Assembly: GCF_002095395.1 (NCBI RefSeq)
Contig: NZ_MJEI01000094.1
Location: 1-64,000, forward strand
DNA: 64,000 nucleotides
Direction: 5' to 3'
DNA from: Williamsia sp. 1135
GTDB taxonomy: Bacteria > Actinomycetota > Actinomycetes > Mycobacteriales > Mycobacteriaceae
Shown: piece by piece, positions 1,725 to 29,823 of the stretch
How positions within the stretch are numbered: position 1 is the stretch's first letter
Layout of the letters: every line of letters starts with the position of its first letter
Program-made: the position numbers and the translations under genes
The notes under the pieces: generated by a model
What the model was told of the DNA's origin: nothing
Seen by the model: the letters and a program-made list of their open reading frames with translations, nothing else
Databases searched by the model: none

Positions 1725-1742
1725 CAATCCTAACAAGGATAG
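1725..1742. promoter_or_regulatory. Island operator copy 1 (18-bp imperfect palindrome)
   Basis: CAATCCTAACAAGGATAG has arms CAATCCT and AGGATAG (6 of 7 positions complementary) around a 4-base spacer. It matches the sites at 18287, 20629 and 29803. It lies 45 bases before the TTG start of the lactonase-like gene. A separate perfect palindrome, AACATTAATGTT, lies just upstream at 1690-1701 and may be a second regulator site. The binding protein is unknown; the GntR-family regulator at 29888 is the only candidate regulator in the island. Confidence 0.6.
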
Positions 1743-1787
1743 CAATGATTGAAGAAGTGCAGCTTCTTCGACGAATGGAGGCCCACC

Positions 1788-3380
1788 TTGACGCAGGCGG
1801 CCCGCTACACCGGCACGACATCGATCACCCTCGCCGAAGGGTGGAACCTAGAGCGGGTCACCGCACCCAGCCGGCTGTTCGGCGCGAACGGCATCCGGAC
1901 CGGCCCGGACGGTCGCATCTACGTCGCCCAGGTGGCGGGCAGTCAGATCAGCGCACTCGACCTCGACACCGGGCAGTTGGAGACGATCAGCGCCAAGGGC
2001 GGCGACATCGTCGCTCCTGACGACGTCGCCTTCGCACCGTCGGGCGACATGTACATCACCGAGTACTACGACGGCCGGGTCAGCGTGCGCAGCCCCGACG
2101 GCGGCACCCGCCTGGTCCGCGACGACCTCCCCGGGGCCAACGGCATCACCATCCACCAGGGCAGGCTCTTCGTGAACGAGTGCCGCGTCGGCGGCCGGCT
2201 GATGGAGATCGATCCGGCGGGCGGCGCGCCGCGGGTACTGCTGGACGAACTGCCGATGCCCAACGGCATGGAGGTCGGACCCGACGGCAAGCTCTACTAC
2301 CCCCTGCTCGGGACCAACGACATCTGGCGCATCGACCCCGAAGGAGGCGAACCCGAGCGTGTCGCAGGCGATCTCGGGGTACCCGACGCCGTGAAGTTCG
2401 ACTCCGAGGGCTTCATCGTCTCGACCCAGGTCGCTTCGGGACAGGTGCTGCGGATCAATCCGCGCAACGGCGATCAGACGGTGCTCGCGAGTTTGAGCCC
2501 CGGGCTCGACAACCTCACATTCGTGGGCGACCGGCTCTTCGTCTCCAGCTTCACCGGTCAGATCACCGAGATCCTCGGTGGCGGCGAGACCCGCACCGCC
2601 CTGCCCGACGGTTTGACCTGGCCCCTCGACATCACCGTCGGAGGAGACGGCACCCTCTACATCGCCGACGGCACGTTCCTGCTCGCGAAACCGCGCGGCG
2701 GTGAATTGCACACGTTGGGCATGCTTTTCAGTCCCGGCTATCCGGGCTACATCCGAGGCCTCACCGCCACCGGCGATGGCGAGTTCATCGTGACCGGCAA
2801 CGGCACGGTGTCGCGGTACCACCCGGCGAGCAGCGAGAGCGAAGTCCTGGTCGAGGGACTCGACCAGCTCTACGGCGTCGCGGTCTCGGCCACCGGCGCG
2901 ATCGCGGTCGCCGACCTGGGCACCGGCAAGGTGTACTCCGTCGAATCCGGGAACGCGACCGAGCTCGCAGGCGGACTGGCCGACCCGACCGGCGTCGCGT
3001 TCACCGCCGATGGCACCCTGCTCGTCTCCGAAGCCGGTGCGGGACGCATTGTCTCGGTGACCAGTTCGGGGGTCGACACCCTGGTCGATGGACTCGAACG
3101 CCCCCAGGGCATCGTCGTGGTCGGCAGCACGCTCTACATCGTCGACGTCGACGCCAAGGCACTCGTCGCGTTCGACCTCGAGTCGAAGGCCAGGCAGACA
3201 CTGGCACAGAACCTCCCCGTCGGCGCACCCCCCGGTGTCGAACCCAAGCCGCTCGTGGGCCTCGCGCCGTTCTCCGGCCCCCAGGGGCCCTACGCCGGTA
3301 TCGCCGCCGACGCCGAGGGGACGCTGTACATCTCGGGCGATGCGGAAGGCAGTGTCCTGGCTCTGCGGGCGGGGAGCTGA
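1788..3380 (+). CDS. SMP-30/gluconolactonase-like beta-propeller protein
   Basis: The 530-residue product is built from repeated beta-propeller strands of the SMP-30/gluconolactonase/NHL kind, for example GIRTGPDGRIYVAQ, NGMEVGPDGKLYYP, DITVGGDGTLYIAD and GVAFTADGTLLVSE. At about 530 residues it is far longer than a single six-bladed lactonase and may hold two propellers. I chose the TTG at 1788 because GGAGG precedes it by about seven bases; a TTG at 1749 lacks such a site. Beside a Baeyer-Villiger-type monooxygenase, hydrolysis of a lactone intermediate is the likely role, but this is inference. It ends two bases before the SDR at 3383 and begins the operon that runs to 13.8 kb. Confidence 0.75.
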   Translation: MTQAARYTGTTSITLAEGWNLERVTAPSRLFGANGIRTGPDGRIYVAQVAGSQISALDLDTGQLETISAKGGDIVAPDDVAFAPSGDMYITEYYDGRVSVRSPDGGTRLVRDDLPGANGITIHQGRLFVNECRVGGRLMEIDPAGGAPRVLLDELPMPNGMEVGPDGKLYYPLLGTNDIWRIDPEGGEPERVAGDLGVPDAVKFDSEGFIVSTQVASGQVLRINPRNGDQTVLASLSPGLDNLTFVGDRLFVSSFTGQITEILGGGETRTALPDGLTWPLDITVGGDGTLYIADGTFLLAKPRGGELHTLGMLFSPGYPGYIRGLTATGDGEFIVTGNGTVSRYHPASSESEVLVEGLDQLYGVAVSATGAIAVADLGTGKVYSVESGNATELAGGLADPTGVAFTADGTLLVSEAGAGRIVSVTSSGVDTLVDGLERPQGIVVVGSTLYIVDVDAKALVAFDLESKARQTLAQNLPVGAPPGVEPKPLVGLAPFSGPQGPYAGIAADAEGTLYISGDAEGSVLALRAGS

Positions 3381-3382
3381 TC

Positions 3383-4233
3383 GTGGCGCAGGATTTCATC
3401 GGACTCGAAGGCAAAGTCGTTGTCGTCTCTGGGGCGGCAGGCGGTGGCATCGGAACATCGGTGACCCGCATGGTCGCCCGCGCCGGCGCCACCGTGATCG
3501 CGGTCAGCCGCTCGGAAGACAACCTCGGCAAACACATCGAGCCGCTGGCTGCCGAGGGCCTGTCGGTGATCCCGGTGGCCGCCGATGCCTCCACCGACGA
3601 GGGGATTGCGGCCGTCCTGCATGAGGTCCGGCGGACCGAGGGAGATCTACACGGTCTGGTCAACGTCGCCGGCGGAGCCGGGCCGGCGACCTGGATGCCC
3701 GCCACCCGCGTCACCCGGGCCGACTGGCGGGATCTGTTCACCCAGAACCTCGAGACGATGTTCTTCATGAGTCAGGCCGTGGCGGCCGAACTCAAGTCCG
3801 CGGGTAAGCCGGGTTCCATCGTCTCGATCTCGTCGATCAGCGGGATGAACACAGCCCCGTTCCACATCGGCTACGGCACCGCGAAAGCGGCATTGGTTGC
3901 CGCAACCCGCACGATGGCAGTCGAATTGGCGACCGACGGGATCCGCGTGAATGCCATCGCTCCGGGCGTGACCGCGACTCCGGCGTCGCTCATGTACGTC
4001 GACGACGACGCCGATCGCGACCAGCGAGCCATCGCCATGGGTCGCCCCGCGGAAATCCGGAGGAGCAGGCCGGGGCCATCCTCTTCCTGCTGTCAGATCT
4101 CTCGACATACATCACCGGGCAAACCCTGCTGGTCGACGGCGGCGTCAACCTCAAGTGGACCCACATGGGCGCCGACCACACGTCGCTCTTCCTCAAGGAC
4201 GAGTCGTTCCGCGCAGCCATGACGCGGTCGTAA
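3383..4233 (+). pseudogene. Short-chain dehydrogenase/reductase, frameshifted near its 3' end
   Basis: The N-terminal two thirds reads as a classical SDR: a glycine-rich cofactor loop (SGAAGGGIG), NVAGGAGP, the serine segment SISSISG and the YGTAK active-site pair. After about residue 221 the frame changes. The expected C-terminus (GNPEEQAGAILFLLSDL, YITGQTLLVDGG, stop TAA at 4231) lies one frame over. One extra C in the CCCC run at 4045-4048 would restore about 283 residues. The gene starts with GTG at 3383, two bases after the lactonase-like gene. Its role is probably an alcohol/ketone interconversion in the pathway. Whether the lesion is real or a consensus error cannot be told from the sequence. 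Confidence 0.8.
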
Positions 4234-4258
4234 CAACAATTTTCAACGGGAGAAGGTC

Positions 4259-5653
4259 ATGACCGACACTGTCGAGAACGCCCAGAAAACAGACGCCGAG
4301 ACACCGGCGACGACCCCGCTCACCATCGGCGTCGACGCCTACCTGTCGCCGGAATACGCGAGGGCAGAAGCCGATCTGCTCTGGTCGAAGGTGTGGCAGC
4401 AGGTCGGCCGGATCGAGGAGATCCCGAAGGTAGGCGATTACCTCACGTACGAGGTCATGGACGACTCGATCATCATCACCCGTACCGGGCCTGACAGCTC
4501 CGATGGCACCCCGAGTCTCAGCGCCTATCACAACGTTTGCTCCCACCGTGGGCGCCGGCTGGTCGACAGGCCATCGTGCGAACATGAGGCACGCGGCAAC
4601 TGCCGCGCCTTTGTCTGCGGCTTCCACGGGTGGACGTACGACCTCGAAGGCAACAACACCTGGGCCGCCGAGAAAGAGGACTGGCCGACCGGATTGACCG
4701 ACAAGCGAACCAGACTCACGCCCGTACAGGTGGACACCTGGGGCGGCTGGGTGTGGATCAACATGGATCCCGACGCCGAACCGCTGCGGCAGTATCTCGA
4801 ACCGGCGGCGACCCTCCTCGACCCGTTCGGGCTGCAGAACATGCGGTACCGCTGGCGGAAATGGCTTGTGTTCGACTGCAACTGGAAGGTGGCACTCGAG
4901 GCGTTCATGGAGACCTACCATGTGCCGTACACCCACCCCGAGTTCCGGAAGTTCGGCACCTTCCTGGGCTGGTCGCGGTACCAGGGCCGGCACAGCAACA
5001 TCGGCTACGACGCACCCAAGGGCATGGAGGAGAACCAGGCGAAGCTCCGCGTCGCCGACGGACCCGACGCACGCCTGTCGACCATCGAGCTGCAGAACTT
5101 CACCTGGGAGAACGCCAACACCAACACCACCCGCACCCTCGTCGATGCGGCGGAACGGCTGACCGACGAACTCCCCGCAGATACCCCGCCGGGCGAGGTA
5201 CTGCGGCACTGGCTCGCCTCGGCCAAGAAAGACGACGCCAACCGTGGAGTGGTGTGGCCGGAAGTCGACCCCGAGGTGATCGCCAAGAGCGGCACCGCGT
5301 GGCAGATCTTTCCCAACTTCCAGATCGGGCACGCGCTGAACAACATGCTCTGCTACAGCGCACGCCCGTACGGGGACGATCCGGACAAGTGCATCTTCGA
5401 GGCCGCTGTCTACGAGTTGTTCCCCGAAGGTGAAGAGCCCGAGACGAAGTGGGAATACACACCCGAGGACGATCCCGGGTGGCGGACCGTGCTGCCGCAA
5501 GATTTCTCGAACATGGCCGCGGTCCAAAAGGGCATGAAGGCACGCGGGTTCACCGGCCCCAAGCCCAACCCCTATCGCGAGCGCAGCATCGTCAACCTGC
5601 ACCACAACCTGGCTATGTACATGGGCACCGGCGCGCCCACCGATCTCGACTGA
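4259..5653 (+). CDS. Rieske non-haem iron oxygenase, large (alpha) subunit
   Basis: The 464-residue product is the terminal oxygenase of a Rieske-type hydroxylating system. The [2Fe-2S] ligands are visible as CSHRG (Cys94, His96) and CGFHGW (Cys120, His123). The mononuclear-iron histidines are in ETYHVPYTHPEF (His221, His226). These enzymes use O2 and electrons from NAD(P)H, delivered through a reductase and often a ferredoxin, to hydroxylate or demethylate their substrate. No beta subunit, ferredoxin or reductase gene lies nearby, so it is probably an alpha-only oxygenase served by electron carriers encoded elsewhere. ATG at 4259 follows the purine-rich GGGAGAAGG. The substrate is not predictable. 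Confidence 0.88.
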   Translation: MTDTVENAQKTDAETPATTPLTIGVDAYLSPEYARAEADLLWSKVWQQVGRIEEIPKVGDYLTYEVMDDSIIITRTGPDSSDGTPSLSAYHNVCSHRGRRLVDRPSCEHEARGNCRAFVCGFHGWTYDLEGNNTWAAEKEDWPTGLTDKRTRLTPVQVDTWGGWVWINMDPDAEPLRQYLEPAATLLDPFGLQNMRYRWRKWLVFDCNWKVALEAFMETYHVPYTHPEFRKFGTFLGWSRYQGRHSNIGYDAPKGMEENQAKLRVADGPDARLSTIELQNFTWENANTNTTRTLVDAAERLTDELPADTPPGEVLRHWLASAKKDDANRGVVWPEVDPEVIAKSGTAWQIFPNFQIGHALNNMLCYSARPYGDDPDKCIFEAAVYELFPEGEEPETKWEYTPEDDPGWRTVLPQDFSNMAAVQKGMKARGFTGPKPNPYRERSIVNLHHNLAMYMGTGAPTDLD

Positions 5654-5699
5654 CCATCCATCTCCCCATCTGCCCGAACCCCCGAGTCAAGGAATCACC

Positions 5700-7533
5700 A
5701 TGCAGCCCTGCGCACCTACGCAGACTCCCGAGGTCGACATCCCCGCCCTCCGCGAGAAGTACCTCCTCGAGCGCGACAAGCGCATCCGACCCGACGGACA
5801 GCAGCAGTACCTGGAGGCCGAGGACGACTTCTCGGAGTTCTACGAAGGCGATCCCCACACACCGGTGGTGCCGCGGCAGCCGATCACCGACGACATCGAG
5901 GTGGTGATCCTCGGTGGCGGGTTCTGCGGTCTGATCACCGCGCAGCGCCTGCAGCAGGCGGGGGTCACGGACTTCAAGATCATCGAACTGGGCGGCGACT
6001 TCGGCGGTGTCTGGTACTGGAACCGCTACCCCGGCATCCAGATCGATTCCGATGCCTACTGTTACCTCCCGCTGCTCGAGGAGACCGGCTACATCCCGAA
6101 AGAGAAGTTCTCCAAGGGTGACGAATGCTTCGAACACGCCCAGCGCATCGGCACGCATTTCGGGCTCTACGACAACGCGATCTTCCACACCCTGATCCGC
6201 TCACTGGAATGGGATGGCGAGATCAACCGCTGGCAGATCAGCACAAACCGGGGCGACGAAATCCGTGCGCGACACGTCATCCTGTGCCAGGGTCCCTACA
6301 ACCGGCCGAAGCTACCCGGCATCCCAGGCATCAAGGACTTCAAGGGGCACACCTTCCACACCGCCCGTTGGGATTACGAGTACACCGGCGGCACCCTGCA
6401 CGGCGATCTCGACAAGATCGCCGACAAGAATATCGCGGTCATCGGCACGGGATCCAGTGGTATCCAGGCGATCCCGCACCTGGCCAAGGGTGCGAAGCAC
6501 TTGAACGTCTTCCAGCGCACCCCGTCCTACATCTTCGAGCGGGCCAACTATCCGACCGACCCCGAGTGGGTGGCGAGCCTGGAGCCTGGGTGGCGGGCGG
6601 CGCGCCAGCGCAACTTCCACAACGCGGCCTTCTCGTTCTACTCCCCCGGCGAGCCCGACCTCATCTGCGACGGTTGGACCGAGGTCTCGCGCAACATGGC
6701 CGCGAAACTCAACGCGACCGAGAATTTCTCGGGCTGGGCGGCCTTGGCCGATCCGGCGAAGTTCATGGAGCTCAAAGAGATCGAGGACTACCGGGCGGTG
6801 GAGCGCCTGCGGCAGCGCGTCGAGCAGATCGTCGAGGATCCGGCGACCGCGGAACTGCTGAAGCCCTACTACCGCAACATGTGCAAGCGGCCCGTCTTCA
6901 ACGATGAGTACCTACCGACGTTCAACCGTCCCAACGTGACCCTCGTCGACGTGTCGGAGACCAAGGGCGTCGAGCGCATCACCGAGAAGGGATCATCGTC
7001 GACGGCGTCGAGCACGAGTTCGACTGCATCGTCTTCGCCAGCGGCTTCGAGATCACCACGGCCCTTGACCGACAGTTCGACATCAAGCCGTTCGCCGGCC
7101 GCGAGGGGACCTCGCTGTACGACCACTGGGGCAAGGGTTCCGCACGCTGCACGGGGTGATGGCTCACGGATTCCCGAACCACTTCGCGACCGGATTCGTC
7201 CAGGGTGGCGTCACCGCGTCGACGACTCTGATGTTCGAACAGCAGGCCGATCACATCGCCTACATCATCAAGGAAGCCCAGGACCGTGGGGCCACGTACG
7301 TCGAGCCGACCGCGGAGGCCGAAGACGAATGGGTCGCGACGATCCGGGCGAACTCCGTCGACAACAGCACCTTCACCTCCGAGTGCACCCCCGGTTACTA
7401 CAACAGCGAGGGAGAGCCGAACGGCCGGTCCTTCCTCGGTGATCCGTTCTGGGGCGGGTTCTACGAGCTCACCGAGTTGCTGCAGGCTTGGCGCGACACC
7501 GGAGAACTCGAAGGCCTGGTGCTCGAGAAATGA
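5700..7533 (+). pseudogene. Flavin-containing Baeyer-Villiger-type monooxygenase with two frameshifts
   Basis: The product would be about 611 residues. It has an N-terminal FAD Rossmann motif (ILGGGFCGL, near residue 70), the type I Baeyer-Villiger fingerprint FKGHTFHTARWD (from residue 214), and an NADPH-binding GTGSSGIQ (near residue 249). Such enzymes insert oxygen next to a ketone to give an ester or lactone. Two frame breaks interrupt it: one at the GGG of 6989-6991, after VERITEKG, and one at the GGG of 7135-7137, after YDHWGK. Adding one G to each run restores IIVDGVEHEFDCIVFASGF and then FRTLHGVMAHGFPNHF through to the TGA at 7533. The stop overlaps the ATG of the next SDR (ATGA). Confidence 0.85.
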
Positions 7534-8471
7534 CCGGACAGCAAGAACCCGAGCTCAGGTTCGACGACCGGGTTGCCGTGATCACCGGCGCAGGCAGGGG
7601 GCTGGGCCGCGCCTACGCCCTGCTGCTCGCGTCGAAGGGCGCCAAGGTCGTCGTCAACGATCCCGGCGCCGCGATCAGCGGGGAGAGTATCGACGCGGGT
7701 CCGGCCGACGACGTGGTCGCCGAGATCCGAGCCGCCGGCGGTGAGGCCGTGGCCAGCACCGCGTCTGTGGCCACCCCTGACGGCGGCAAGGCCATCGTCG
7801 ACACCGCGATCGAGCACTACGGCAAGATCGACATCCTCATCCACAACGCCGGCAACAATCGCTATGCCTCCCTGGCCGAGATGTCATACGAGGACTTCGA
7901 CGCCGTGCTCGACGTCCACCTACGGGGCGCCTTTCATGTTGTCCGGCCCGCATTCCCACTGATGCGCGATGCCGGATATAGGCGCATAGTGCTGACGTCG
8001 TCGATCGGTGGCATCTACGGCAACAAGAACGTCGCCAATTACGGCGCGGCCAAGGCCGGAATCATCGGCCTGTCCAACGTCGCCGCGCTGGAGGGTCACG
8101 AGCACGGGGTGATGTCCAACGTCATCGTGCCCGCGGCGCTGACGCGGCTCGCCGAGGGGCTCGACACCTCTGCGTACCCACCGATGGGACCTGAGCTGAC
8201 GGCCCCTGCGGTCGGCTGGCTTGCACACGAGAACTGTTCGATCACAGGAGAAATGCTGGTGGCGATCGCCGGCAGGGTCGCACGGGCATTCATCGCGGAG
8301 ACACCCGGCGTCTACCGGCCGTCCTGGACCATCGAGGAGGTCGGCGAGCAGATGGCCGCCATCCGCGACACCAGCGACCCGTGGATTCTCCCGGTCGTCC
8401 CGTCGGCCCACGTCGACCACATCACCAAGAGCTTCGCGACAGCCATGGAGGGCAGCGCACATGTCGGTTAA
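7530..8471 (+). CDS. Short-chain dehydrogenase (17beta-HSD4-like SDR domain)
   Basis: The 313-residue product has the SDR cofactor motif ITGAGRGLG, the HNAGN motif, the serine region LTSSIGG and the catalytic YGAAK. The length and the Asn-Asp-Pro after the second strand (VVVNDPG) resemble the dehydrogenase domain of peroxisomal multifunctional enzyme 2/17beta-HSD4, which oxidises 3-hydroxyacyl-CoAs using NAD. That makes a hydroxyacyl-CoA dehydrogenase role plausible, though a free-alcohol dehydrogenase is also possible. The ATG overlaps the preceding stop by four bases, and the 3' end overlaps the next gene by 11, so it lies inside a tightly coupled operon. Confidence 0.8.
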   Translation: MTGQQEPELRFDDRVAVITGAGRGLGRAYALLLASKGAKVVVNDPGAAISGESIDAGPADDVVAEIRAAGGEAVASTASVATPDGGKAIVDTAIEHYGKIDILIHNAGNNRYASLAEMSYEDFDAVLDVHLRGAFHVVRPAFPLMRDAGYRRIVLTSSIGGIYGNKNVANYGAAKAGIIGLSNVAALEGHEHGVMSNVIVPAALTRLAEGLDTSAYPPMGPELTAPAVGWLAHENCSITGEMLVAIAGRVARAFIAETPGVYRPSWTIEEVGEQMAAIRDTSDPWILPVVPSAHVDHITKSFATAMEGSAHVG

Positions 8472-10166
8472 AGTCTACGAACGCATCCTCGACCTCTTCG
8501 AGGCCGAAGGCATCAACACCATCTTCGGTATCCCCGATCCCAACTTCGTCCATCTCTTCCACCTCGCCGAAGAGCGCGGCTGGAATGTTGTTGCGCCCCA
8601 TCATGAGGAATCCGCAGGCTTCATGGCCGAGGCCGTCTCGCGGATGACCGGCAAGGCCGCGGTGTGCATCGGCACCCTCGGCCCCGGTATCGCCAACCTC
8701 GCCGGCGCCATCATGTGCGCCAAGGTCGAGAACTCGCCGGTCATCTTCCTCGGTGGACAGCGTGCCCGCATCACCGAACAGCGGGTCCGTCGCGGTCGGA
8801 TCCAGTTCGTTCAGCAGTCGGCGCTGGTCGAGGCGTCTGTGAAGTACAGCGCCAGTATCGAATACGCCGATCAGACCGACGACATCATCCGCGAGGGCCT
8901 ACGCAAGGCGCTCTCCGGAACCCCCGGCCCGGTGTACATCGAGTACCCGTCCCACGTCATCCAGGAAGAACTGGACGTGCCGCCGGCCCTGCCGCCGAAG
9001 GCATACCGTCTCGTCGGACAAACTGCGGGCCAAGCTCAGATCGATGAGGCCGTCCGCCTGATCGGCGCGGCGAAGCAACCCCTTCTCCTGGTCGGTCACG
9101 GTGTCCACACCACGCGCGCGGGCGCCTCGGTGAAGCAACTCGCCGACCTGCTCGCCTGCCCGGTCATCCAGACCTCCGGCGGCACGTCGTTCATCGAAGG
9201 GCTCGAGGATCGCACGTTCCCCTAAGGCTTCTCGACCGCAGCGGTCGACGCGGTCGTCACATCCGACCTCTGCCTGGCCATCGGCACCGAACTCGGCGAG
9301 CCCGTCCACTTCGGTCGCGGCAGGCATTGGGTGGCGAACGAGGCCAATCGCAGCTGGATCTACATCGAGCAGGACCCGGCAGCCATCGGAGTGAACCGGT
9401 CGATCGATGTGCCCCTGGTGGGTGATCTGCGGGCCATTGTCCCGCAGCTGGTCGACGCGCTGAAGGAATCACCGCGTACCGCAACACCAGAGCTGGCCGC
9501 CTGGATCAAAGAGGACGCCGCGCAACTGGCCGAACTCGCCGAGACCGCTCCGTCGGGGATGTCGCCCGTCCACCCGGCCAGGCTCATCGTCGAGGCCACC
9601 AAGGACTTCCCATCCGACGGCATCATGGTCCGCGACGGCGGCGCCACCACCATCTTCGGCTGGACGTACTCGCAGGCCAAACCCCATGACGTCATGTGGA
9701 ATCAGAACTTCGGCCACCTCGGTACCGGCCTGCCGTACGCGGTCGGGGCCGGTGTCGCCGACGGCGGCAAACGCCCGATGATGCTGATCACCGGCGACTC
9801 GTCATTCCAGTTCCACATCGCCGAACTGGAAACGGCTGCACGCCTGAACCTCCCGCTGGTCTGCGTGGTCGCCGTCGACTACGCCTGGGGCCTGGAGGTC
9901 GGTGTCTACAAGCGCACCTACGGCCAGGGGTCGCTCGAGACCGGCGTCCACTGGAGCAGCGACACCCGGCTCGACAAGGTCGCCGAGGGCTTCGGCTGCT
10001 ACGGCGAATACGTCGACCGCGACGAGGACATCGCCCCGGCCATCAAGCGCGCCTACGCCAGTGGCAAACCGGGTGTCATCCACGTCGCCGTCGACCCGAA
10101 GGCCAACTCGGAGGAGATGCCGAGCTCGACGAGTTCCGGACCTGGTACGCCGAGGGCCAGCAGTGA
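8461..10166 (+). pseudogene. Thiamine-diphosphate-dependent lyase/decarboxylase with nonsense codon and frameshift
   Basis: The reconstructed protein of about 568 residues has the three-domain layout of the acetolactate synthase/benzoylformate decarboxylase/2-hydroxyacyl-CoA lyase superfamily. The N-terminal pyrimidine domain carries the catalytic-Glu segment HHEESAGFMAEA. The C-terminal domain has the diphosphate-binding GDSSFQFHIAELETA; the asparagines usual at the end of that motif read VDYAWG here. Two lesions are present. TAA at 9223-9225 sits in frame where EDRTFP continues as GFSTAAVD (a Tyr codon is expected). One base is missing at the CC of 10120-10121, after which ELDEFRTWYAEGQQ and TGA lie in another frame. 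Its position before an aldehyde dehydrogenase suggests it releases an aldehyde from a 2-hydroxyacyl-CoA or 2-oxoacid. Confidence 0.8.
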
Positions 10167-10206
10167 TCCCTCGTCCCGTTGCACAACAAGAGAGTTAGGA
10201 CTCCTC

Positions 10207-11630
10207 ATGCGTGAATACACGAAGCTCTTCATCGACGGCCAATGGGTCGATCCTGCGAAACCCGCGACCCTTGATGTCATCAACCCGGCAACGGAAGAGC
10301 TCGCCGGCACCGTGGCCGTCGGATCATCGGCCGATGTCGACAAAGCTGTCGCTGCGGCGCGCCGCGCCTTCACGACCTGGTCGACCACACCCGTCGCCGA
10401 CCGAGTCGCGCTCCTCGAGAACATCGCCGCGGAATACCAGCAGCGTGCAGGCGATCTCGGTGCGGCGTTGACCGAACAGATGGGCGCTCCGAAGGAACTG
10501 GCGAACGGTTTTCAGATCAACCTGGGTGCCGGACATCTCGCGACGGCCATCGAGGCGCTCAAGGCGTACACCTTCGAGGAGCAGCAGGGCAGTTCTCTGA
10601 TCGTCAAAGAGCCGATCGGCGTCTGCGGCCTGATCACCCCGTGGAACTGGCCGCTGAACCAGATCGCCGTCAAGGTGTTCCCAGCGCTGGCGACCGGCTG
10701 CACGATGATTCTCAAGCCGTCTGAACGCTCCCCGTTCACCGGGCAGATCTTCACCGAGATCCTCGACGCCGCAGGGGTTCCCGCGGGTGTTTTCAACCTC
10801 GTGCAGGGGACGGTCCTGGCGTCGGCGTACCGCTGTCGAGTCATCCCGACGTGGACATGATCTCGTTCACCGGCTCCACGCGTGCCGGCATCGACACCAA
10901 CGCGGCCTCCGGGGTCAAGCGGGTCACCCAGGAACTCGGCGGCAAGGGCCCCAACATCGTCCTCGACGACAAGGACTTCGCCGAGAACGTCGGCAAGGGC
11001 GTTGTCACCATGATGCTGAACTCCGGGCAGACCTGCAGCGCACCGTCGCGCATGTTGGTTCCGAGCGAGCGCATGGAGGAGGCGATCGGCGTTGCGAAGG
11101 AAGCTGCGGCGTCGGTGACCGTCGGAGATCCGAACGGCGACTTCGCCATCGGTCCGGTGGTCTCGAAATCACAGTTCGACAAGATCCAGGAGCTGATTGC
11201 CCAGGGCATCGCAGACGGCGCGACGCTGGCCGCCGGAGGTCCCGGCCGTCCAGAGGGTATCGACAAGGGCTTCTTCGTGCAGCCGACGGTGTTCGCCGAC
11301 GTGAAGAACGACATGACCATTGCCCGCGAGGAGATCTTCGGCCCGGTCCTGACGATCCTGGGTTACGACAGCGTCGACCACGCGATCGAGATCGCCAACG
11401 ACACCGAGTACGGTCTCGCAGGCGCTGTCGCAGGTGCCGACCTCGAACTCGCCCGGTCGGTGGCCCGGCGCATCCGCTCGGGATCCGTTGCCATCAAGGG
11501 CGGATTCGACTTCAGTGCTCCGTTCGGCGGATACAAGAAAAGCGGAAACGGCCGGGAATGGGGTGCATTCGGGTTCGAGGACTACCTGGAGGTCAAGGGA
11601 ATCCTCGGCTACGCACCGGACGAGGCCTGA
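10207..11630 (+). pseudogene. NAD(P)-dependent aldehyde dehydrogenase, frameshifted
   Basis: The product would be about 474 residues of the aldehyde dehydrogenase superfamily. Visible are the cofactor/anion segment ITPWNWPLNQ, KPSERSPFT, the cofactor loop FTGSTRAG, the catalytic-Glu region QELGGKGPNIV, the catalytic cysteine in NSGQTCSAPSR and EEIFGPVL near the C-terminus. The frame breaks at about 10812: adding one G to the GG of 10812-10813 turns the reading into QGTGPGVGVPLSSHPDVDMISF and joins the two halves. It follows the TPP enzyme by about 40 bases, with an AGAGTTAGGA stretch before the ATG. It probably oxidises the aldehyde that enzyme releases to an acid for re-activation by the acyl-CoA ligases. 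Confidence 0.85.
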
Positions 11631-11647
11631 GGGAGAGGAGAACGACC

Positions 11648-12481
11648 ATGAGCACACTTGCCGTCGAACGGCTCACCGACACCGTCGGGGCCAAGCTGTT
11701 GGACATCGACGCCGAGCGATTACGGAACGACTACGACCTCGCGGATGCGGTGGCGGAGGCACTCGAAACCCATTCGGTGCTGCTGTTTCCCCAACTCGAT
11801 GCCGACGACGAGACCCTGGTCGAGTTCTGCCGGAAACTGGGCACCCTGATCAATTTCTCTCATCTGCCCCCGGCAACCGCCGAGGTGATGGAGATCAGTT
11901 TAGACCCCAGTAATCCGAATGCGGAATACTTTGCCAGCAAATGCTTTTGGCACATCGACGGCCTGCTCGACGAGATCGCCCCGAAGACGTCGATGCTCAC
12001 CGCACGGGTGACCTCCGCCGAGGGTGGTGAGACGGAGTTCGCGAGCACCTACGCGGCGTACGACGCGCTGACCGACGACGAGAAGACGCGATTTGCCGAC
12101 CTTCGGGTGGTGCACACCTTCGAGGCCATCCAGCGGCTCACCTACCCCGATCCGACACCGGAGCAGGTCACCGAGTGGGCGTCTCGCTCGGTCCGCGAAC
12201 ATCCCCTGGTGTGGGAACACGATTCGGGTCGACGTTCTCTCGTGCTGGGTGCCAAGGCTTCTCACATCGTCGGCATGGACCTCGACGAGGGTCGCACTCT
12301 GTTGCGGGAACTGCAAGAACGCATCACGGCACCGGAGCTCGTGTGTCAGCACAGTTGGTCAGAGGGCGACACGGTGCTCTGGGACAACACCGGACTCGTT
12401 CATCGCGTCCGCGACTTCGATCGAAGCAAGCCACGCACCATGCATCGGTCCACCGTCAAGGGTCAGGAGAAGATCAAATGA
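11648..12481 (+). CDS. TauD/TfdA-family Fe(II)/2-oxoglutarate-dependent dioxygenase
   Basis: The 277-residue product shows the facial triad of the TauD/TfdA family: His102 and Asp104 in FWHIDG and a distal His near residue 252 (GLVHRVRDF). Downstream arginines (near residues 263-267, RTMHR) could bind 2-oxoglutarate. The family couples oxidative decarboxylation of 2-oxoglutarate to hydroxylation, or cleavage after hydroxylation, of a substrate that is often a sulfonate, ether or acyl compound. ATG at 11648 follows GGGAGAGGAG, a strong ribosome site. The stop overlaps the next SDR's ATG. Next to a TPP lyase and an aldehyde dehydrogenase it could be the 2-hydroxylase of an alpha-oxidation-like sequence; this is inference. 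Confidence 0.85.
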   Translation: MSTLAVERLTDTVGAKLLDIDAERLRNDYDLADAVAEALETHSVLLFPQLDADDETLVEFCRKLGTLINFSHLPPATAEVMEISLDPSNPNAEYFASKCFWHIDGLLDEIAPKTSMLTARVTSAEGGETEFASTYAAYDALTDDEKTRFADLRVVHTFEAIQRLTYPDPTPEQVTEWASRSVREHPLVWEHDSGRRSLVLGAKASHIVGMDLDEGRTLLRELQERITAPELVCQHSWSEGDTVLWDNTGLVHRVRDFDRSKPRTMHRSTVKGQEKIK

Positions 12482-13221
12482 GCGGTCATACTGCCATCGT
12501 CACCGGAGGCGCGTCGGGTATCGGCGAGGCCATCGCCCGGCGCCTAGCTGCAGACGGCGATCTGGTCGCGATCTTCGACATCAACGAGAAGGCCGCCGAG
12601 GCCGCGGCCCTGTCGATCGAGAACGCCGGCGGCAAGGCGGTCGGGCTCGGCGTCGATGTCACCGACCGTAGTCGCATCGATGCAGGTGTCGGCGAGGTCA
12701 AGGCACGACTCGGACGTCCGACCGTCCTGGTGAACAGCGCCGGTGGGACGCTCGCCGGGCCGTTCCTCGACATCACCGCCGACACCTGGGACCGTGTGCT
12801 GGCACTGAATCTGTCGAGTACCTTCCACTGCTGTCAGGCCGTCATCCCCGAGATGCTCGAGGAGGGCTGGGGCCGCATCGTGAACATCTCCTCGTCGAGT
12901 GTGCACAGCGGCTCTCCCGGACTCGCCGGTTACGTCACAGCGAAATCCGGTGTGGTGGGACTGACCAAAGTGCTGGCGCTCGAATTCGGCAGGCGTGGAA
13001 TCACTGTCAACACCGTTCCTCCCGGATTCATCGACACCCCGATGCTGCGCGCCACCGTCGAGTCGGGAATGGTCGACGTCGATGCACAGGTCGCCAAGAC
13101 CCCGGTGGGCCGGATCGGGCAACCCGAAGATGTCGCGGCGACGTGCGCCTTTCTCGTCAGCGAGGAAGCCGGCTACATCACCGGTCAGATCATCGGCGTC
13201 AACGGCGGACGAAACACGTGA
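12478..13221 (+). CDS. Short-chain dehydrogenase/reductase
   Basis: A 247-residue classical SDR with VTGGASGIG at the cofactor loop, NSAGG, the NISSSS serine strand, YVTAK and the C-terminal YITGQIIGVNGG typical of FabG-like oxidoreductases. FDIN at the end of strand 2 puts an acidic residue where NAD-preferring enzymes have one. It overlaps the TauD-like gene by four bases (ATGA) and the next gene by four (GTGA), so the three are translationally coupled. It probably oxidises a secondary alcohol or a 3-hydroxyacyl-CoA in the island; the substrate is unknown. Confidence 0.85.
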   Translation: MSGHTAIVTGGASGIGEAIARRLAADGDLVAIFDINEKAAEAAALSIENAGGKAVGLGVDVTDRSRIDAGVGEVKARLGRPTVLVNSAGGTLAGPFLDITADTWDRVLALNLSSTFHCCQAVIPEMLEEGWGRIVNISSSSVHSGSPGLAGYVTAKSGVVGLTKVLALEFGRRGITVNTVPPGFIDTPMLRATVESGMVDVDAQVAKTPVGRIGQPEDVAATCAFLVSEEAGYITGQIIGVNGGRNT

Positions 13222-19861: not shown

Positions 19862-20619
19862 GCGGCACGGACATGTTCGACCTCGACGGCCGGGTCGCCG
19901 TGGTCACCGGCGCCTCGTCGGGACTCGGGGTGGCGATCGCGGAAGCCCTGGCGTCGGTGGGCGCTCGGGTCGCAGTGGTCGCTCGCCGCGCCGACAAACT
20001 CGCCGCCGTCGCGAAGCGCATCGGCGGAGTGGCCATCGCCCGAGACCTGTCAGATCTCGACCAGGCCGGTTCGGTGATTCCCGCAGTCGTCGACGCCCTC
20101 GGTCCACCGGAGATCCTCATCAACGCTGCCGGCAGCATGTTCACGGAGGAGAGGGCCGAGGCCGAACCGCGCGTCGCCATCGAGCAGACCCTGGGTCTCA
20201 ACCTCATCGCGCCATTCTTGCTCGCGCAGGCCGCATTTCCGCACATGGTCGAAGCCGGACGCGGCTCGATCGTGAACATCTCGTCGATCAGCGGACGCGT
20301 CGGAATTCCCGGTATCCCCCAAGCGTCGTACGCGGCGAGCAAGGCCGGCCTGTCCGGGCTCACCGCCGAGCTCGCGGTTCAGTGGGCGCGGCACTCGATC
20401 CGAGTGAACACCGTGGCACCCGGGTTCTTCCGGAGCGAGATCACCGGTCCGCTCTACGACAGCAGCAAGGCCGCCGAATACCTCAGGCGCAACACACCCC
20501 TGCCCAAAGAGGGTTCGGCACAGGACATCGTGGGCGCCGTGCTGTGGCTGGCGGGCGATGCGGGGAGCTATGTCACGGGCCAGACCATCGTCGTCGACGG
20601 GGGCTGGACGGCACGCTAG
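19858..20619 (+). CDS. Short-chain dehydrogenase/reductase
   Basis: A 253-residue classical SDR with VTGASSGLG, VVARRADK after strand 2 (basic residues that favour NADP), INAAGS, NISSISG, YAASK and the C-terminal YVTGQTIVVDGG. It begins with GTG overlapping the ligase stop (GTGA) and is the second and last gene of that short operon; a promoter/operator for the next unit starts within ten bases of its stop. Probably a ketone reductase or hydroxyacyl-CoA dehydrogenase. Confidence 0.85.
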   Translation: MSGTDMFDLDGRVAVVTGASSGLGVAIAEALASVGARVAVVARRADKLAAVAKRIGGVAIARDLSDLDQAGSVIPAVVDALGPPEILINAAGSMFTEERAEAEPRVAIEQTLGLNLIAPFLLAQAAFPHMVEAGRGSIVNISSISGRVGIPGIPQASYAASKAGLSGLTAELAVQWARHSIRVNTVAPGFFRSEITGPLYDSSKAAEYLRRNTPLPKEGSAQDIVGAVLWLAGDAGSYVTGQTIVVDGGWTAR

Positions 20620-20625
20620 CAAGTA

Positions 20626-20655
20626 TTGCAATCCTTGTGAGGATTGAAGTAATGT
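20626..20655 (+). promoter_or_regulatory. Promoter with perfect island operator (copy 3)
   Basis: The palindrome CAATCCTTGTGAGGATTG (20629-20646) has perfectly complementary 7-base arms and is the best copy in the window. It is embedded between TTGCAA (20626-20631, -35) and TAATGT (20650-20655, -10), 18 bases apart, so a bound protein would cover the promoter. The stretch from 20619 to 20655 agrees by eye at 31 of 37 positions with the minus-strand promoter at 29794-29830. It drives the AcuI-like gene and probably the MaoC-type and ligase genes after it. Confidence 0.7.
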
Positions 20656-20706: not shown

Positions 20707-21690
20707 ATGTTTTCTGCTGTTGTCATCGAGAAAGGCGAAGCGGGCCAATCGGTTGCGCTCGCGAGCCTCGACGAGGCCGACCTACCAGAGGGCGAGGTCG
20801 ACATCACCGTCGACTACTCCTCGCTCAACTACAAAGACGCACTTGCCATCACGGGTAGCTCCCCCGTGGTACGGAAGTTTCCGATGGTTCCCGGCATCGA
20901 CCTCGCCGGCACCATCACCCGCAGCGCGCACGCCGGCTGGTCCGAAGGTGATCGCGTGGTCCTCAACGGCTGGGGTGTCGGCGAAAGCCATTGGGGCGGT
21001 TTCGCTCAGCAGGCGCGACTCAAGGGCGACTGGCTCGTGCCCCTGCCCCCGGAGTTCACCACCCGCCAGGCCATGGCGATCGGCACCGCCGGGTACACCG
21101 CCAGCCTTTGCGTCGACGCCCTCCTGAACTTCGGAGTCCAACCCGACCAGGGCGAAATCCTGGTGACCGGTGCGACCGGCGGGGTCGGCAGCGTCGCCAT
21201 CGCACTGCTGAAGAAGGCCGGCTTCACCGTCGCTGCGTCCACCGGAAAGACCTCGGAGTCAGCTTATCTCGAGCAGCTCGGTGCGAGTTCCGTGGTCGAT
21301 CGCGCCGAACTCGCAGAGAAGGGCAAGGCGATGCAGAAGGAGCGCTGGGCAGGCGTCGTCGATTCTGTCGGCAGTCACACCCTGGCCAACGCCTGCGCGC
21401 AGACGAAGTACGGCGGCGCGGTCGCAGCCTGCGGTCTCGCCCAGGGAATGGACTTCCCGGCAACCGTCGCACCGTTCATCCTGCGTGGGGTCACCTTGCT
21501 CGGCATCGACAGCGTGATGGCTCCGCTCGAGAAGCGTCAGAGAGCATGGGAGCGGCTCGCCCGAGACCTCGATCCGAGTGCGATCGAGGCCATCGCCGAA
21601 GAGATCACGCTCGCAGAGTCCATCGATGCCGCAACCAGGCTCATCGAAGGCACGGTGCGTGGTCGCATCGTCATCGACGTCAACAGATAA
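20707..21690 (+). CDS. acuI: AcuI/YhdH-type NADPH-dependent acryloyl-CoA reductase-like MDR oxidoreductase
   Basis: A 327-residue zinc-free medium-chain reductase of the AcuI/YhdH family, which reduces acryloyl-CoA to propionyl-CoA with NADPH. Typical segments are [42 protein letters not shown] and the dinucleotide motif [10 protein letters not shown]. The ATG at 20707 gives the family's usual MFxA start and lies 12 bases after AGGA; ATG at 20695 is possible but too close to that site. The gene is the first after operator copy 3. In this setting the true substrate may be a larger 2-enoyl-CoA, so the symbol denotes family only. Confidence 0.8.
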
Positions 21691-21702
21691 GCGGGAGAAC
21701 AC

Positions 21703-22897
21703 ATGACGACACACGCAACTGAACCGGACACCGTCGAACTCGACCTCTCCGATGTCGATCATCGAGTCGGCAAACCCATCGGCGGCGGGCAACTGTGGGA
21801 TCCGTGCAGCACCTCCGACATCCGGCGCTGGGCGATGGCCATGGACAATCCGAACCCCATGCACTGGGACGAGAGGTTCGCCCGAGAGTCCAAGTTCGGC
21901 GGTCTCATCGCCCCGCAATCCATCGCAGTGGCCCTGGACTACGGACACGGCGCGGCACCAGCGTGCGTGGGACACATCCCGAACAGTCACCTGATCTTCG
22001 GCGGCGAGGAGTGGTGGTTCTACGGCACCCCTGTCCGCCCGGGCGACAAACTGTTCCAGGAGCGTCGCTTTCACGACTACAAGGTCCGACACCAAGTTCG
22101 CCGGACCCACGATGTTCTCGCGCGGCGACACGACGCACAAGAATCAGCACGGAGCCCTCGTCGCCCGAGAGCGGTCGACCGCCATCCGGTACCTCTCGGC
22201 AGAGGCGAACAAGCGCGGCATGTACGACGACCAGATCGGCGCCACCAAGAAATGGACCGCCGACGAGCTCGCCGAGGTCGACAAGCTGCGGCACGCATGG
22301 CTGCTGTCGAACCGTCTCGGGATCTCGCCGCGTTTCGGCGAGGTCAAGATCGGCGACACCCTGCATCGCCGCGTCATCGGCCCGCACACCATCGCGAGTT
22401 TCACCACCGAGTACCGCGCGTTCCTGTTCAACATCTGGGGCACGTTCGAGTGGGTCGCCCCCGAAGGGGTGGAGGACCCGTGGGTCTACCAGGATCCCGG
22501 CTGGAGTGAGGGTTTCGGGTTCGACGAGGAAGGCGCGATGATCGACCCCCGCCTGCGCGACGGTCTCTATGTCGGGCCGTCACGCGGGCACATCGACGCA
22601 GACAAGGCCGGTGAGGTGGGCATGGCCCGGGCCTACGGTTACGGCGCGACCATGGGCGCCTGGTGCACCGACTACCTCGCGAACTGGGCGGGCCACGAAG
22701 GCATGGTCCGGCACACCAAGGCCGACTTCCGCGGCCCCGCCTTCGAAGGCGACGTCACGTACTTCGATGCCGAGGTCGTCGACAAGCAGGCCGACTCCGA
22801 GTGGGGCGTACCGCTCGTCCAGATCAAGGTCAAGCTCACCAGCCAGGACGGCACCACGCTGGTGACGTGCACCGCCGAGGTTGAACTGCCCGTCTAG
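21703..22897 (+). pseudogene. MaoC-type (hot-dog) acyl-CoA dehydratase, frameshifted
   Basis: The reconstructed protein of about 398 residues fits the long actinobacterial MaoC-like dehydratases with two hot-dog domains. The N-terminal half holds WAMAMDNPNPMHWDERFA and GGEEWWFYGTPVRPGD. The second half has FAGPTMFSRGDTTHKN, later YGYGATMGAWCTDYLANW, and ends LVTCTAEVELPV. The reading shifts at 22084-22087: GTCC stands where GTCTCC would give DYKVSDTKFAGPTMF, so two bases are missing. This is the only 2-bp lesion in the island. ATG at 21703 follows GCGGGAG 12 bases after the AcuI-like stop. It probably hydrates the enoyl-CoA made by the acyl-CoA dehydrogenases. Confidence 0.8.
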
Positions 22898-22933
22898 CCA
22901 CCACCCATCGAGCGGCACCTGAGAGGTCGAGTC

Positions 22934-24639
22934 ATGAGCACACCCACCGTTGATTCATCAGTGCGACCTCTGTCGATCGTGTCGGGTCCACCGCTCGACG
23001 AAGAGCCCGGGCTCGGCACGCTGACGATGCCCGGATTCCTCCGCGAGGTGACTGCGCTCTACGGCGAGCGCGAAGCGCTCGTCTTCCATACCGAGGACGG
23101 CGTCGTCCGCTGGACGTACGCCGAGCTGTGGGAGCGTGCGATCGAGGTCGCGCAGGCACTCAGGGCGGCCGGAATCGGCAAGGACGGCCGGGTGGGCGTG
23201 CTCATGACCAATCGCCCCGAATGGATCTCGGCAGTCTTCGGGACGTCACTGGCCGGAGGGGTCGCGGTCACCCTGAGCACCTTTTCCACACCGGCCGAAC
23301 TCGATCACCTCATCGGGGTATCCGAGATCTCGGTGCTGCTGTTCGACCGCCAGATCCTGAAAACCGACGTGGCCACCGTCCTTACCGAGCTCGAACCACA
23401 GCTCGCGTCGGTCTCCCCCGGCCAACTACGCTCCCTCGACTATCCGTTCCTGCGCCACCTCGCGATGGTCGGCGATGAAGAGAATGGGCCAAGCGGAATC
23501 GAGACCTGGGATACCTTCCTTGCCCGCGGCGCATCCGAACCGAGGGAGCTGATCGAGGCGACCGCGGCGACGACCAAACCCAGTGACACCGCCGTGCTCT
23601 TTTTCTCCTCCGGATCGACCAGCAAGCCGAAGGGCATTCTCAGCGCACATCGCGGAGTTGCCATCCAGCTGTGGCGGTTCCGGCAGCTGTACCATTTCGG
23701 ACCCGATGACAACATCCGCTGCTGGAGCGCCAACGGGTTCTTCTGGTCGGGTAATTTCGCGATGGCGCTGGGCAACACACTGTCCAGCGGCGGTTCCCTG
23801 GTGTTGCAGAAGACCTTCGATCCGGTCGAGGCACTCGATCTCATCGAAGCGGAGAAGGTCAACTTCCCGTTCGCCTGGCCGCATCAGTGGGCACAGTTCG
23901 AGTCCACTCCCAACTGGGGTACAGCCGACCTGAGCAGTCTGCGGTTCGTGGACCACCGCACGCCCGTGGCCCGCCACCCGTCCGTCACCGCGACTGGATA
24001 GAACCCGGATACGCCTACGGGAACACCGAGACCTTCACCATCTCATCGATTTTTCCGGCCAACACCACCGAGGAAGAAGCCGGCGGCAGCAGCGGCACAC
24101 CTCTTCCCGGCGTGACATTCAAAATTGTCGACTCGTTGACCGGTGACACCCTCCCGTTGGGCGAGCGCGGCGAGATCTGTGTCAAAGGCCCCACCCTGAT
24201 GCTCGGCTACCTCGGCACCCCGCTGAGTGAGACCGTCGACGACGAAGGATTCTTCCCCACCGGCGACGGCGGATACCTCGACGACGCGGGGCGGCTCTTC
24301 TGGGAAGGCCGCCTCACCGACATCATCAAGACCGGCGGCGCCAACGTTTCACCCCTCGAGGTCGACGAGGTACTCGTCTCCCACCCGGGCGTCAAAGTGA
24401 CTCGCACGGTGGGCCTTCCGCACGAGACCCTGGGCGAGATCGTGGTCGCCTGCATCGTGCCTCACGCCGACGCGAGTCTCGACGCCGACGGCATCCGCGC
24501 GTTCATGAAACAGAAGCTCGCCAGCTACAAGGTCCCGCGTGAGGTGCTCTTCTTCGACGACGAAGAAATCACCCTGACCGGCAGCGCGAAGATCAAGACC
24601 AGCGACGTCAAAGCCCTGGCAGCCCGACGATTGGCGTGA
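22934..24639 (+). pseudogene. AMP-dependent acyl-CoA synthetase, frameshifted
   Basis: The reconstructed ligase of about 568 residues has the ANL P-loop FFSSGSTSKPKGIL, the aromatic-rich NGFFWSGNFAMALG and, in the second frame, YAYGNTETFT, PTGDGGYLDDAGRLFWEGR, IIKTGGANVSPLEVDEV and the terminal SAKIKT lysine. Adding one G at 23992 (GCGAC to GCGGAC) restores VTADWIEPGYAYG and removes the TAG at 23999-24001. It is the last gene of the plus-strand unit starting at 20707 and converges on an acyl-CoA dehydrogenase eight bases away. It probably activates a carboxylic acid of the island substrate. Confidence 0.82.
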
Positions 24640-28638: not shown

Positions 28639-29774
28639 GACGCCGCCGGCAGGAGGGTTCGCGCCAACAAGATCCGCTGCATCTCGATGCTTCCCGATGC
28701 CACGGTGGCGGCCTGCGAGTAGCTCCAGTGATCTCGGACGTCGAGCCGAAAGCGTTCGGTGTCGTCGTCTGATGAGGTTGCATACGAAGCGATCTCGGTG
28801 AGAACCTCGGCACTGTCCTGGTCGAGAGTGGTCACGGCTATGCGGTAGACCGCGGCGTCGGCGGGCCGCACCCGTCCCTCGCTCTGCATCGCCACGACCC
28901 GGTAGGCGAGCAACCGGGCGCGCCGGCAATGCACCAGCATGCGGCTCCAACGTCCGTGCAACTCGGCAGGCAAGTCGTCCCACTCGTCGCCGAGCACGGT
29001 CGGGGCTTCTTGCAGGAGACGCTCACACCGGGCGTACCGGGCGATACCCACGCGCTCGAAGGCCAGCACCTCCTGGACCACCTGCCATCCCTCGTCGACA
29101 GTGCCCAGGACGTGCGCCTGCGTGACCTCGAGATCGTTGAAGAAGACCTCGTTGAGGTGGTGAGGTCCCAACATCGCGCGGATGGGGCGTACCTCGATCG
29201 CCGGGTCCGACATAGGGACCAGGAACACGGTCAGGCCTTGCTGCTTGCGTTCTCCCGTCGACGTGCGGGCGAGCAGGAAGCACCACTGCGCCATCGTCGC
29301 GTACGACGTCCAGATCTTCTGACCCGAGATCCGCCATCCATCACCGCTGCGTCGAGCAGCCGTGCGCAGGGACGCGAGGTCGGAGCCCGACCCCGGCTCG
29401 GAGAAGCCCTGACACCAGATCACGTCGCCCCGGGCGATGGGCGGCAAGTGTTCGCGCTGCTGTTCGGGCGTGCCGTGCCGCATGATGGTCGGCCCCACCC
29501 AATTCACGCCCATGTACTGGGCGCCCCGCGGCTCGTGATGCGCCCACATCTCCTCGCGGACCACGGTCTGCTCCCACACCGACGCGCCGCGTCCGCCGAA
29601 CTCTTCAGGCCAGGCCAGACACAGCAACCCGCGCTCGGCCAGGAATCGGCAGAACTCCTGCGCAGTCTCGAGATCGGCCGGATCATCGGTGAACGCGCCG
29701 CGAAAGTCTGCGGGGACCTGTTCCTGCAGCAACCCTCGCAATTCCTCGCGCAGTCGGGTCGCCGCCTCCCCCAT
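28635..29774 (-). CDS. Acyl-CoA dehydrogenase, long subunit of a second pair
   Basis: A 379-residue acyl-CoA dehydrogenase with LAWPEEFGGRGASVWEQ, CQGFSEPGSGSDLASL, ISGQKIWTSYA and a C-terminal SGSIEMQRILLARTLL in place of the usual GGTSEIQ. I chose ATG at 29774: a GTG at 29795 is in frame, but the -10 element of the promoter lies at 29794-29799, so that codon would be upstream of the transcript. It is the first gene of a five-gene minus-strand operon (two dehydrogenase pairs and a hydratase) and diverges from the GntR regulator. Confidence 0.85.
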   Translation of the reverse strand: MGEAATRLREELRGLLQEQVPADFRGAFTDDPADLETAQEFCRFLAERGLLCLAWPEEFGGRGASVWEQTVVREEMWAHHEPRGAQYMGVNWVGPTIMRHGTPEQQREHLPPIARGDVIWCQGFSEPGSGSDLASLRTAARRSGDGWRISGQKIWTSYATMAQWCFLLARTSTGERKQQGLTVFLVPMSDPAIEVRPIRAMLGPHHLNEVFFNDLEVTQAHVLGTVDEGWQVVQEVLAFERVGIARYARCERLLQEAPTVLGDEWDDLPAELHGRWSRMLVHCRRARLLAYRVVAMQSEGRVRPADAAVYRIAVTTLDQDSAEVLTEIASYATSSDDDTERFRLDVRDHWSYSQAATVASGSIEMQRILLARTLLPAAS

Positions 29775-29793
29775 GGTGAAGTCCGTACGGATC

Positions 29794-29823
29794 ACATTAC
29801 TTCAATCATTGATAGGATTGGAA
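29794..29823 (-). promoter_or_regulatory. Promoter with island operator (copy 4) between the dehydrogenase operon and gntR
   Basis: CAATCATTGATAGGATTG (29803-29820) has 6 of 7 complementary arm positions. Read on the minus strand it sits between TTCCAA (29823-29818) and TAATGT (29799-29794), with an 18-base spacer, exactly as in copy 3. The two promoters also share GCAAGTATT on the upstream side and GATTGAAGTAATGT on the downstream side. The site lies 68 bases before the GntR start, so autoregulation is plausible. Confidence 0.68.

Follow-up and report, generated by a model that had tools for sequence, protein, structure and literature searches.

The window analysed here is a stretch of 64,000 nucleotides from Williamsia sp. 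1135 (contig NZ_MJEI01000094.1, positions 1 to 64,000) that carries an island of catabolic operons together with a gene (gntR) for a GntR/FCD regulator. A first-pass annotation of this DNA had described four copies of an 18-bp palindrome, CAATCCT-N4-AGGATTG, each before a catabolic transcription unit, and had proposed a single repressor, either this GntR/FCD protein or a regulator encoded outside the window. All four copies were located, and those at 18287 and 29803 do lie in divergent intergenic regions, as had been said of two of them. Sequence comparison makes it very probable that the regulon exists and that it is controlled by the GntR protein encoded beside it; regulator and operators are conserved in many Mycobacteriales and some other actinobacteria. 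The features concerned are as follows (ACAD, acyl-CoA dehydrogenase; BVMO, Baeyer-Villiger monooxygenase; SDR, short-chain dehydrogenase/reductase).

1725..1742 (1725..1751 with the third half-site CAATGATTG), plus strand: putative operator 1, before the SMP30-SDR-Rieske-BVMO operon; one mismatch to the palindrome, two to the 27-bp pattern
18287..18304, no strand given: putative operator 2, with a degenerate left arm, between the divergent CaiB and AMP-ligase genes; three mismatches
20620..20646 (palindrome 20629-20646), minus strand: putative operator 3, before the AcuI-MaoC-ligase operon; no mismatch, and an exact match to the 27-bp pattern
29803..29829 (palindrome 29803-29820 plus third half-site), plus strand: putative operator 4, between the ACAD operon and gntR; one mismatch
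29888..30691, plus strand: GntR/FCD regulator of 267 aa, proposed from Pfam and co-occurrence as the binder of all four operators

The palindrome in Williamsia and at the loci of its relatives

The first-pass annotation had suggested a genome-wide search for the palindrome. In the whole 5.98-Mb Williamsia genome, sequences within one mismatch of it were found only at 1725, 20629 and 29803. Three such sites are beyond chance in positions 1-30000 of the window, as this number was reached by none of 209 permuted half-sites (maximum 0) and by none of 3000 random half-sites (maximum 2). The 27-bp pattern CWATCCTN4AGGATWGNAATACTTG, searched through the genome at up to three mismatches, likewise returned only the three strong sites, with a control count of 0. 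Four matches to the palindrome at up to three mismatches in the window are mildly unusual (mean 1.17, reached by 4 of 100 shuffles), and 82 places in the genome, 18287 among them, lie within three mismatches as against 53 for the reversed control, so that site 18287 taken alone is meaningless and no better than chance. It is nevertheless probably a genuine member of the set, because the surrounding block recurs at orthologous spots. The block CTATCAGRTCAATSYTTACAAGGATAGTGGTAT is common to seven stretches from Williamsia and Gordonia relatives; two of these (L133, L135) have the exact palindrome at this spot and the other five (L153-L156 and L158, from Gordonia and Williamsia) the weak left arm of the window, the four Gordonia genomes being divided equally between the exact (2/4) and the weak form (2/4). 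At operator 1, an alignment with promoter sequences from three Williamsia and one Gordonia showed that the invariant columns concentrate on the operator. This operator is also bracketed by a 15-nt inverted repeat (93%; 1674-1688 and 1746-1760, 57 nt between the arms), the right arm of which overlaps the third half-site; by eye, the repeat can be made out in W. soli and, in a weaker form, in W. limnetica, but not in W. faeni or the aligned Gordonia sequence.

The sites were further sought at 80 named loci, the best 80 of 348 named relatives of the regulator, from Williamsia, Gordonia, Rhodococcus, Nocardia, Aldersonia, Actinomadura, Amycolatopsis, Mycolicibacterium and others. Absence of the motif from orthologous promoters, named in the first-pass annotation as a result that would speak against its proposal, is not what was seen: a site with at most one mismatch precedes the gntR ortholog in 56/80 loci, and in two further loci it overlaps the start assigned to that gene (58/80), and at up to two mismatches the count rises to 63/80 with the addition of L078, L084, L094, L098 and L106. 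Altogether, 92 sites with at most one mismatch (68 exact, 24 with one mismatch) were found in 1,504,050 bases, and all are in one of four promoter settings: 57 in the interval from the first acyl-CoA-dehydrogenase gene to gntR (57/80 loci), 28 ahead of SMP30, six ahead of acuI, and one (L056) ahead of a gntR copy adjoined by other cluster genes. No homolog of a window gene has any of the 92 within it. Five Markov copies of these sequences gave no sites, and 60 permuted palindromes gave no exact match and a mean of 0.12 (maximum 4) one-mismatch places. The position of the SMP30 operon relative to gntR shifts between genera, its own site with at most one mismatch being present in 28 loci: the SMP30-Rieske-BVMO operon adjoins gntR in many Rhodococcus and Nocardia loci, and lies about 28-30 kb away in Williamsia and Gordonia, still with a site.

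Co-occurrence was computed, for this GntR only, across 401 genomes of the family by comparing an exact-site search with a search for GntR orthologs. A close ortholog was defined by at least 65% identity and sorted by hand, with at most six candidates scored per genome; one partial ortholog (G230) was counted as present, and 47 genomes with a weaker homolog only (37-50%) were counted as lacking it. The exact site CWATCCTN4AGGATWG was detected in 35/43 genomes with a close ortholog and in 4/358 without one (Fisher p = 4e-38, uncorrected for kinship), and in none of the 47 with a weaker homolog only. The exact site is missing from eight ortholog genomes, and in six of them (G038, G124, G204, G298, G099 and G380) a site with a single mismatch adjoins genes of the cluster. 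The four exact sites in genomes without a close ortholog (L149-L152) lie in surroundings without island homologs. The most telling cases are six Nocardia carnea-type genomes (L141-L146), in which gntR lies away from the ACAD operon and the exact site still precedes that operon in 6/6. Similarly, on Rhodococcus plasmid pUSK13_1 (L162) a one-mismatch site is located between the dehydrogenase operon and acuI, with gntR 9 kb off. The same plasmid has an extra one-mismatch site at 5548-5565, before genes annotated as an oligopeptide/dipeptide-type ABC transporter, which may be an uptake system belonging to the regulon. Comparison of sequences establishes the sites, their positions, their conservation and their link to the regulator, and this shared occurrence supports the earlier proposal of one regulon across the island under the GntR/FCD protein.

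Anatomy of the probable operator and DNA reading by its proposed regulator

A position matrix was built from 123 distinct sites taken from the window, the 80 loci and 26 further stretches. The conserved block measures 27 bp, CAATCCTYA + YAAGGATWG + CAATACTTG, and consists of three 9-bp repeats in alternating orientation. The operator is not confined to the 18-bp palindrome, as the third 9-bp half-site is conserved as well: it is matched with at most two mismatches in 100/123 sites, a figure somewhat inflated since each site was oriented for the best fit to CAATACTTG. On the side opposite the third repeat there is a conserved TA-containing element that reads as a -10 box in the reverse direction. 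Before SMP30, the third repeat is found on either side (21 versus 7 of 28 sites) and is thus unlikely to be merely a -35 element. An extra, weaker half-site 7-12 nt from the centre is described for a considerable number of GntR sites (PMC4494728), which makes the third half-site an instance of a described habit. Within the window, operator 1 is oriented oppositely to operators 3 and 4 relative to its gene. The matrix has no symmetric GT...AC, and CT/AG stands nearest the centre; the first-pass remark that the operator does not resemble TGGT-ACCA is borne out by this lack of a GT/AC core.

The regulator has an N-terminal GntR winged helix (PF00392; 4e-12, 46.0 bits, cut-off 27) and a C-terminal FCD domain (PF07729; 1.9e-11, 44.9 bits, cut-off 24.3). 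In the predicted model (mean pLDDT 80.1, pTM 0.67) the FCD domain is all-helical and the first helix of the protein starts at residue 11. The fold matches NanR, CGL2915, Atu1419 and FadR with TM-scores of only 0.34-0.63. The nearest named relatives are from W. limnetica (98%) and W. soli (97%). The metal site of FCD domains consists of three histidines and one Asp or Asn, and is not present in every member. In an alignment of 31 orthologs, restricted to sequences at least 70% identical to the window regulator, H156, H209 and H231 are invariant (31/31), and Ala (30) or Ser (1) stands four positions ahead of H156; in Atu1419, Asn137 stands four before His141 (PMC7797058). A second GntR gene of the same genome (L017, contig C93, 1278-1633), 67% identical over residues 3-87, is split into two pieces that lie in different frames, and stands beside frames resembling, by eye, an IS3-type transposase; contig C93 has no site within one mismatch. 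Ten further open reading frames (ORFs) of the window were scanned, and no regulator was found among the ten.

Among solved structures, Escherichia coli NanR of the FadR subfamily (PDB 6on4/6wfq) is the best relative by both sequence and fold. According to PMC8012715, it shares with the window regulator the FCD type, a non-canonical operator with three repeats and catabolic targets. However, the NanR repeats are direct GGTATA copies, not found in the window operator with its three 9-bp repeats of alternating orientation, and the 32-residue N-terminal extension of NanR is missing from the window regulator. The NCBIfam NanR model gives 64.3 bits against a cut-off of 260. By these three marks the protein does not qualify as a NanR ortholog. 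As three NanR dimers bind the three repeats cooperatively (PMC8012715), more than one dimer on the three half-sites may, by analogy, be worth considering here. Agrobacterium Atu1419, an FCD protein of the VanR group, represses a catabolic region in which its palindromes occupy the -10 box or the spacer between it and the -35 box (PMC7797058), which resembles our proposal; however, its operator ATGTATACAT has a GT/AC core, it is a tetramer, and its Arg45 reads G, whereas the window regulator has Tyr48.

Most operators of the FadR subfamily have a GT/AC core, in which FadR uses Arg35 and the recognition-helix residue Arg45 to read the G (PMC4494728). The core is usual, not obligatory, being absent for NanR and BioR. 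The window regulator resembles E. coli FadR and its NyGTNxACNy class in the GntR helix-turn-helix and the helical effector domain, and in the extra half-site that a considerable number of sites of the family possess (PMC4494728), but its operator lacks the GT/AC core. The place of FadR Arg45 is taken by Tyr48 in 31/31 orthologs, so that the arginine that reads G is not present, and that of Arg35 by an acidic residue at position 38 (Asp in 20 and Glu in 11 of 31, positions matched by us). This tyrosine is found in 78/80 named loci, a count biased by the peptide patterns, including FGVSYPS, with which the loci were found; the 31 aligned orthologs were selected without such patterns. Of the 24 GntR-type domains of the same genome that exceed the cut-off (five weaker ones excluded), 18 have Arg, and Tyr occurs only in the window regulator and its broken paralog. 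The missing recognition-helix arginine lowers the resemblance to the FadR subfamily, not the membership in it.

Eighteen distant homologs (40-51% identity), hand-picked from a longer list, have Leu, Lys, Pro or Arg at the Arg45 place and an acidic residue at the Arg35 place in 16/18. Palindromes of the type CTATCTT-N4-AAGATAG were recognised by eye upstream of 2/18, CTATCTTGTACAAGATAG before L212 and CTATCTTTTATAAGATAG before L201, and less exactly before L209 and L210; the homologs that appear to have them come from Gordonia and probably Mycobacterium. The acidic residue may fit the odd operator better than the tyrosine, as a correlation; PMC4494728 predicts contacts between Asp and C. Tentatively, and at slightly under even odds, the regulator could belong to a separate FCD branch with an acidic residue at the Arg35 place, CTATCYT-N4-ARGATAG operators and two or more dimers assembling along three contiguous 9-bp half-sites. 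Other recurring blocks, such as CTATTTATACCATTACTGCTAAAATAG and CTATCTTGTACAAGATAGCAAGGATAG, are found upstream of the distant homologs L195-L200 and L209-L212 (probably Mycobacterium), and are perhaps diverged operators of the same branch.

Proposed mode of control and alternatives

We consider, with a probability of roughly 0.87, that the GntR/FCD regulator (29888-30691) has the palindrome as its operator and would repress the catabolic operons and its own gene until an inducer binds. The positions of the sites, at the regulator's own promoter and before putative pathway operons, fit an autoregulated repressor of a catabolic regulon. A dimer of the regulator would bind the 18-bp palindrome CWATCCTN4AGGATWG, and the adjacent CAATACTTG would assist the binding of another subunit or dimer. 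The protein would sit between -35 and -10 at operators 3 and 4 and close to the start region at operators 1 and 2, and from there keep the operons and gntR off, until a pathway intermediate, presumably an acid or its CoA ester by analogy with relatives of the FadR subfamily, releases it. Direct binding, repression and the part given to the third half-site are what we infer from the arrangement of the sites. The promoter-like elements are:

20626..20655, plus strand: TTGCAA (20626-20631), 18 bases, TAATGT (20650-20655), around operator 3
29794..29823, minus strand: TTCCAA, 18 bases, TAATGT, around operator 4, reading into the ACAD operon

These elements are as the first-pass annotation had given them, the regions of 20629 and 29803 being identical at 31/37 positions. 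Its further step, promoter occlusion, is inferred from the place of operators 3 and 4, since a repressor between -35 and -10 would block RNA polymerase. This part of the claim fits 20629 and 29803, and carries over less readily to the reversed site at 1725, around which no clear -35/-10 pair was seen, or to 18287, which lacks one good arm.

Several observations weigh against the proposed reading. No site within two mismatches precedes gntR in 17/80 loci (14 of Nocardia carnea type and three lone ones, L114, L119 and L126), and in most of the N. carnea-type loci the gntR promoter has, by eye, retained the operator in part only. The sites at several acuI and SMP30 promoters reach no better than two mismatches, and G111 and G384, both with a close ortholog, lack sites within one mismatch altogether. 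Nor is Tyr in place of Arg45 tenable as the sole cause of the odd operator: it leaves the operator unexplained because L201, which has Arg, has a related palindrome upstream (by eye), and Leu occurs at this place in 9/18 distant homologs.

A regulator encoded outside the island could bind the palindrome, with gntR only a target or passenger. As gntR often adjoins its site, it would resemble a target either way, and the N. carnea-type genomes have gntR without a good upstream site; however, in six of these genomes the site precedes the ACAD operon although the GntR ortholog lies elsewhere, the exact site is absent from genomes with only weaker homologs, and site and ortholog co-occur over the 401 genomes. 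Because site and gntR are found together in dozens of genomes, the outside regulator left open by the first-pass annotation has become unlikely, and we would give it rather little weight. Somewhat less improbable, though still a minority view, is that the GntR protein binds the palindrome and activates, or does both, at some promoters, as some GntR/FCD proteins such as E. coli FadR do. The reversed orientation of operator 1 against operators 3 and 4 and the mixed orientation of the SMP30 sites (21 and 7 of 28) would agree with this. The place of operators 3 and 4 between -35- and -10-like elements nevertheless favours repression, and the repressor Atu1419 has its palindromes at the -10 box and in the spacer that separates it from -35 (PMC7797058). 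Readings of the palindrome as a hairpin in RNA, a mobile repeat or a resemblance by chance are highly improbable: among the four exact sites from genomes that lack gntR, two (L149, L150) do sit in long inverted repeats, but the Williamsia genome has three strong sites only, 92/92 sites precede the same few cluster genes, and the conserved bases extend beyond the palindrome into an asymmetric third half-site.

As the operator of the GntR/FCD protein, the palindrome would belong to what is apparently an autoregulated FCD-type catabolic regulator with a non-canonical operator of three half-sites. The operator strings had no match in 5.39 million PMC papers, and a search by topic, with RegPrecise and most subscription papers outside its scope, found no description of the regulator or island in the titles and abstract openings it returned. 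The proposal assigns a regulator and an operator to a large degradation island of Williamsia, Gordonia, Rhodococcus, Nocardia, Amycolatopsis, Actinomadura and partly Mycolicibacterium, in which the operator marks the operons that belong together even when separated, aiding work on the pathway and its substrate. The pair could also provide a clean test case for DNA reading by GntR proteins without the usual Arg-G contact and, once the inducer is identified, possibly a biosensor.

Catabolic operons of the island

Five operons are proposed as targets (ALDH, aldehyde dehydrogenase; ThDP, thiamine diphosphate):

1788..13808, plus strand: SMP-30-like protein, SDR, Rieske oxygenase, BVMO, SDR, ThDP enzyme, ALDH, TauD-like protein, SDR, CMD
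14197..18268, minus strand: enoyl-CoA hydratase (label from reading), CoA-transferase, CitE-like lyase, CaiB-like CoA-transferase
18329..20619, plus strand: AMP-forming ligase, SDR
20707..24639, plus strand: AcuI-type acrylyl-CoA reductase, MaoC-like hydratase, AMP-forming ligase (by homology to an annotated plasmid gene)
24647..29795, minus strand: four acyl-CoA dehydrogenases and an enoyl-CoA hydratase, the members after the first dehydrogenase by homology to annotated plasmid genes

In the first operon, the SMP-30, Rieske, BVMO and ThDP proteins were assigned by profile search, and the SDR, ALDH, TauD and CMD labels come from the reading frames. The SMP-30 protein is lactonase-like. The structure nearest to the BVMO is 5mq6, which we take to be the polycyclic ketone monooxygenase PockeMO. 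By their NCBIfam and PDB relatives, the ThDP enzyme is acetolactate-synthase-like and one acyl-CoA dehydrogenase is near Tcur3483 and 4x28, presumably FadE heteromers. Together with those of the Rieske oxygenase, these relatives, none of them decisive, suggest that the island could break down an alicyclic or terpenoid compound.

Apparent frame breaks, which may reflect either sequencing error or decay, were noted, from the ORF list and by reading, at 3383-4222 (SDR), 5700-7530 (BVMO), 8461-10166 (ThDP enzyme, with a stop at 9223), 10207-11630 (ALDH), 21703-22897 (MaoC-like) and 22934-24639 (ligase); the homologs of the last two on pUSK13_1 are annotated as single genes. Units resembling TCGGCACGGTCG occur at 1610-1621, 13835-14189 and 33689-33721, mostly clustered between operons. 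With 13 matches at up to one mismatch in the window against 2.0 expected, a number that 0/100 shuffles attained, they look like an intergenic repeat family.

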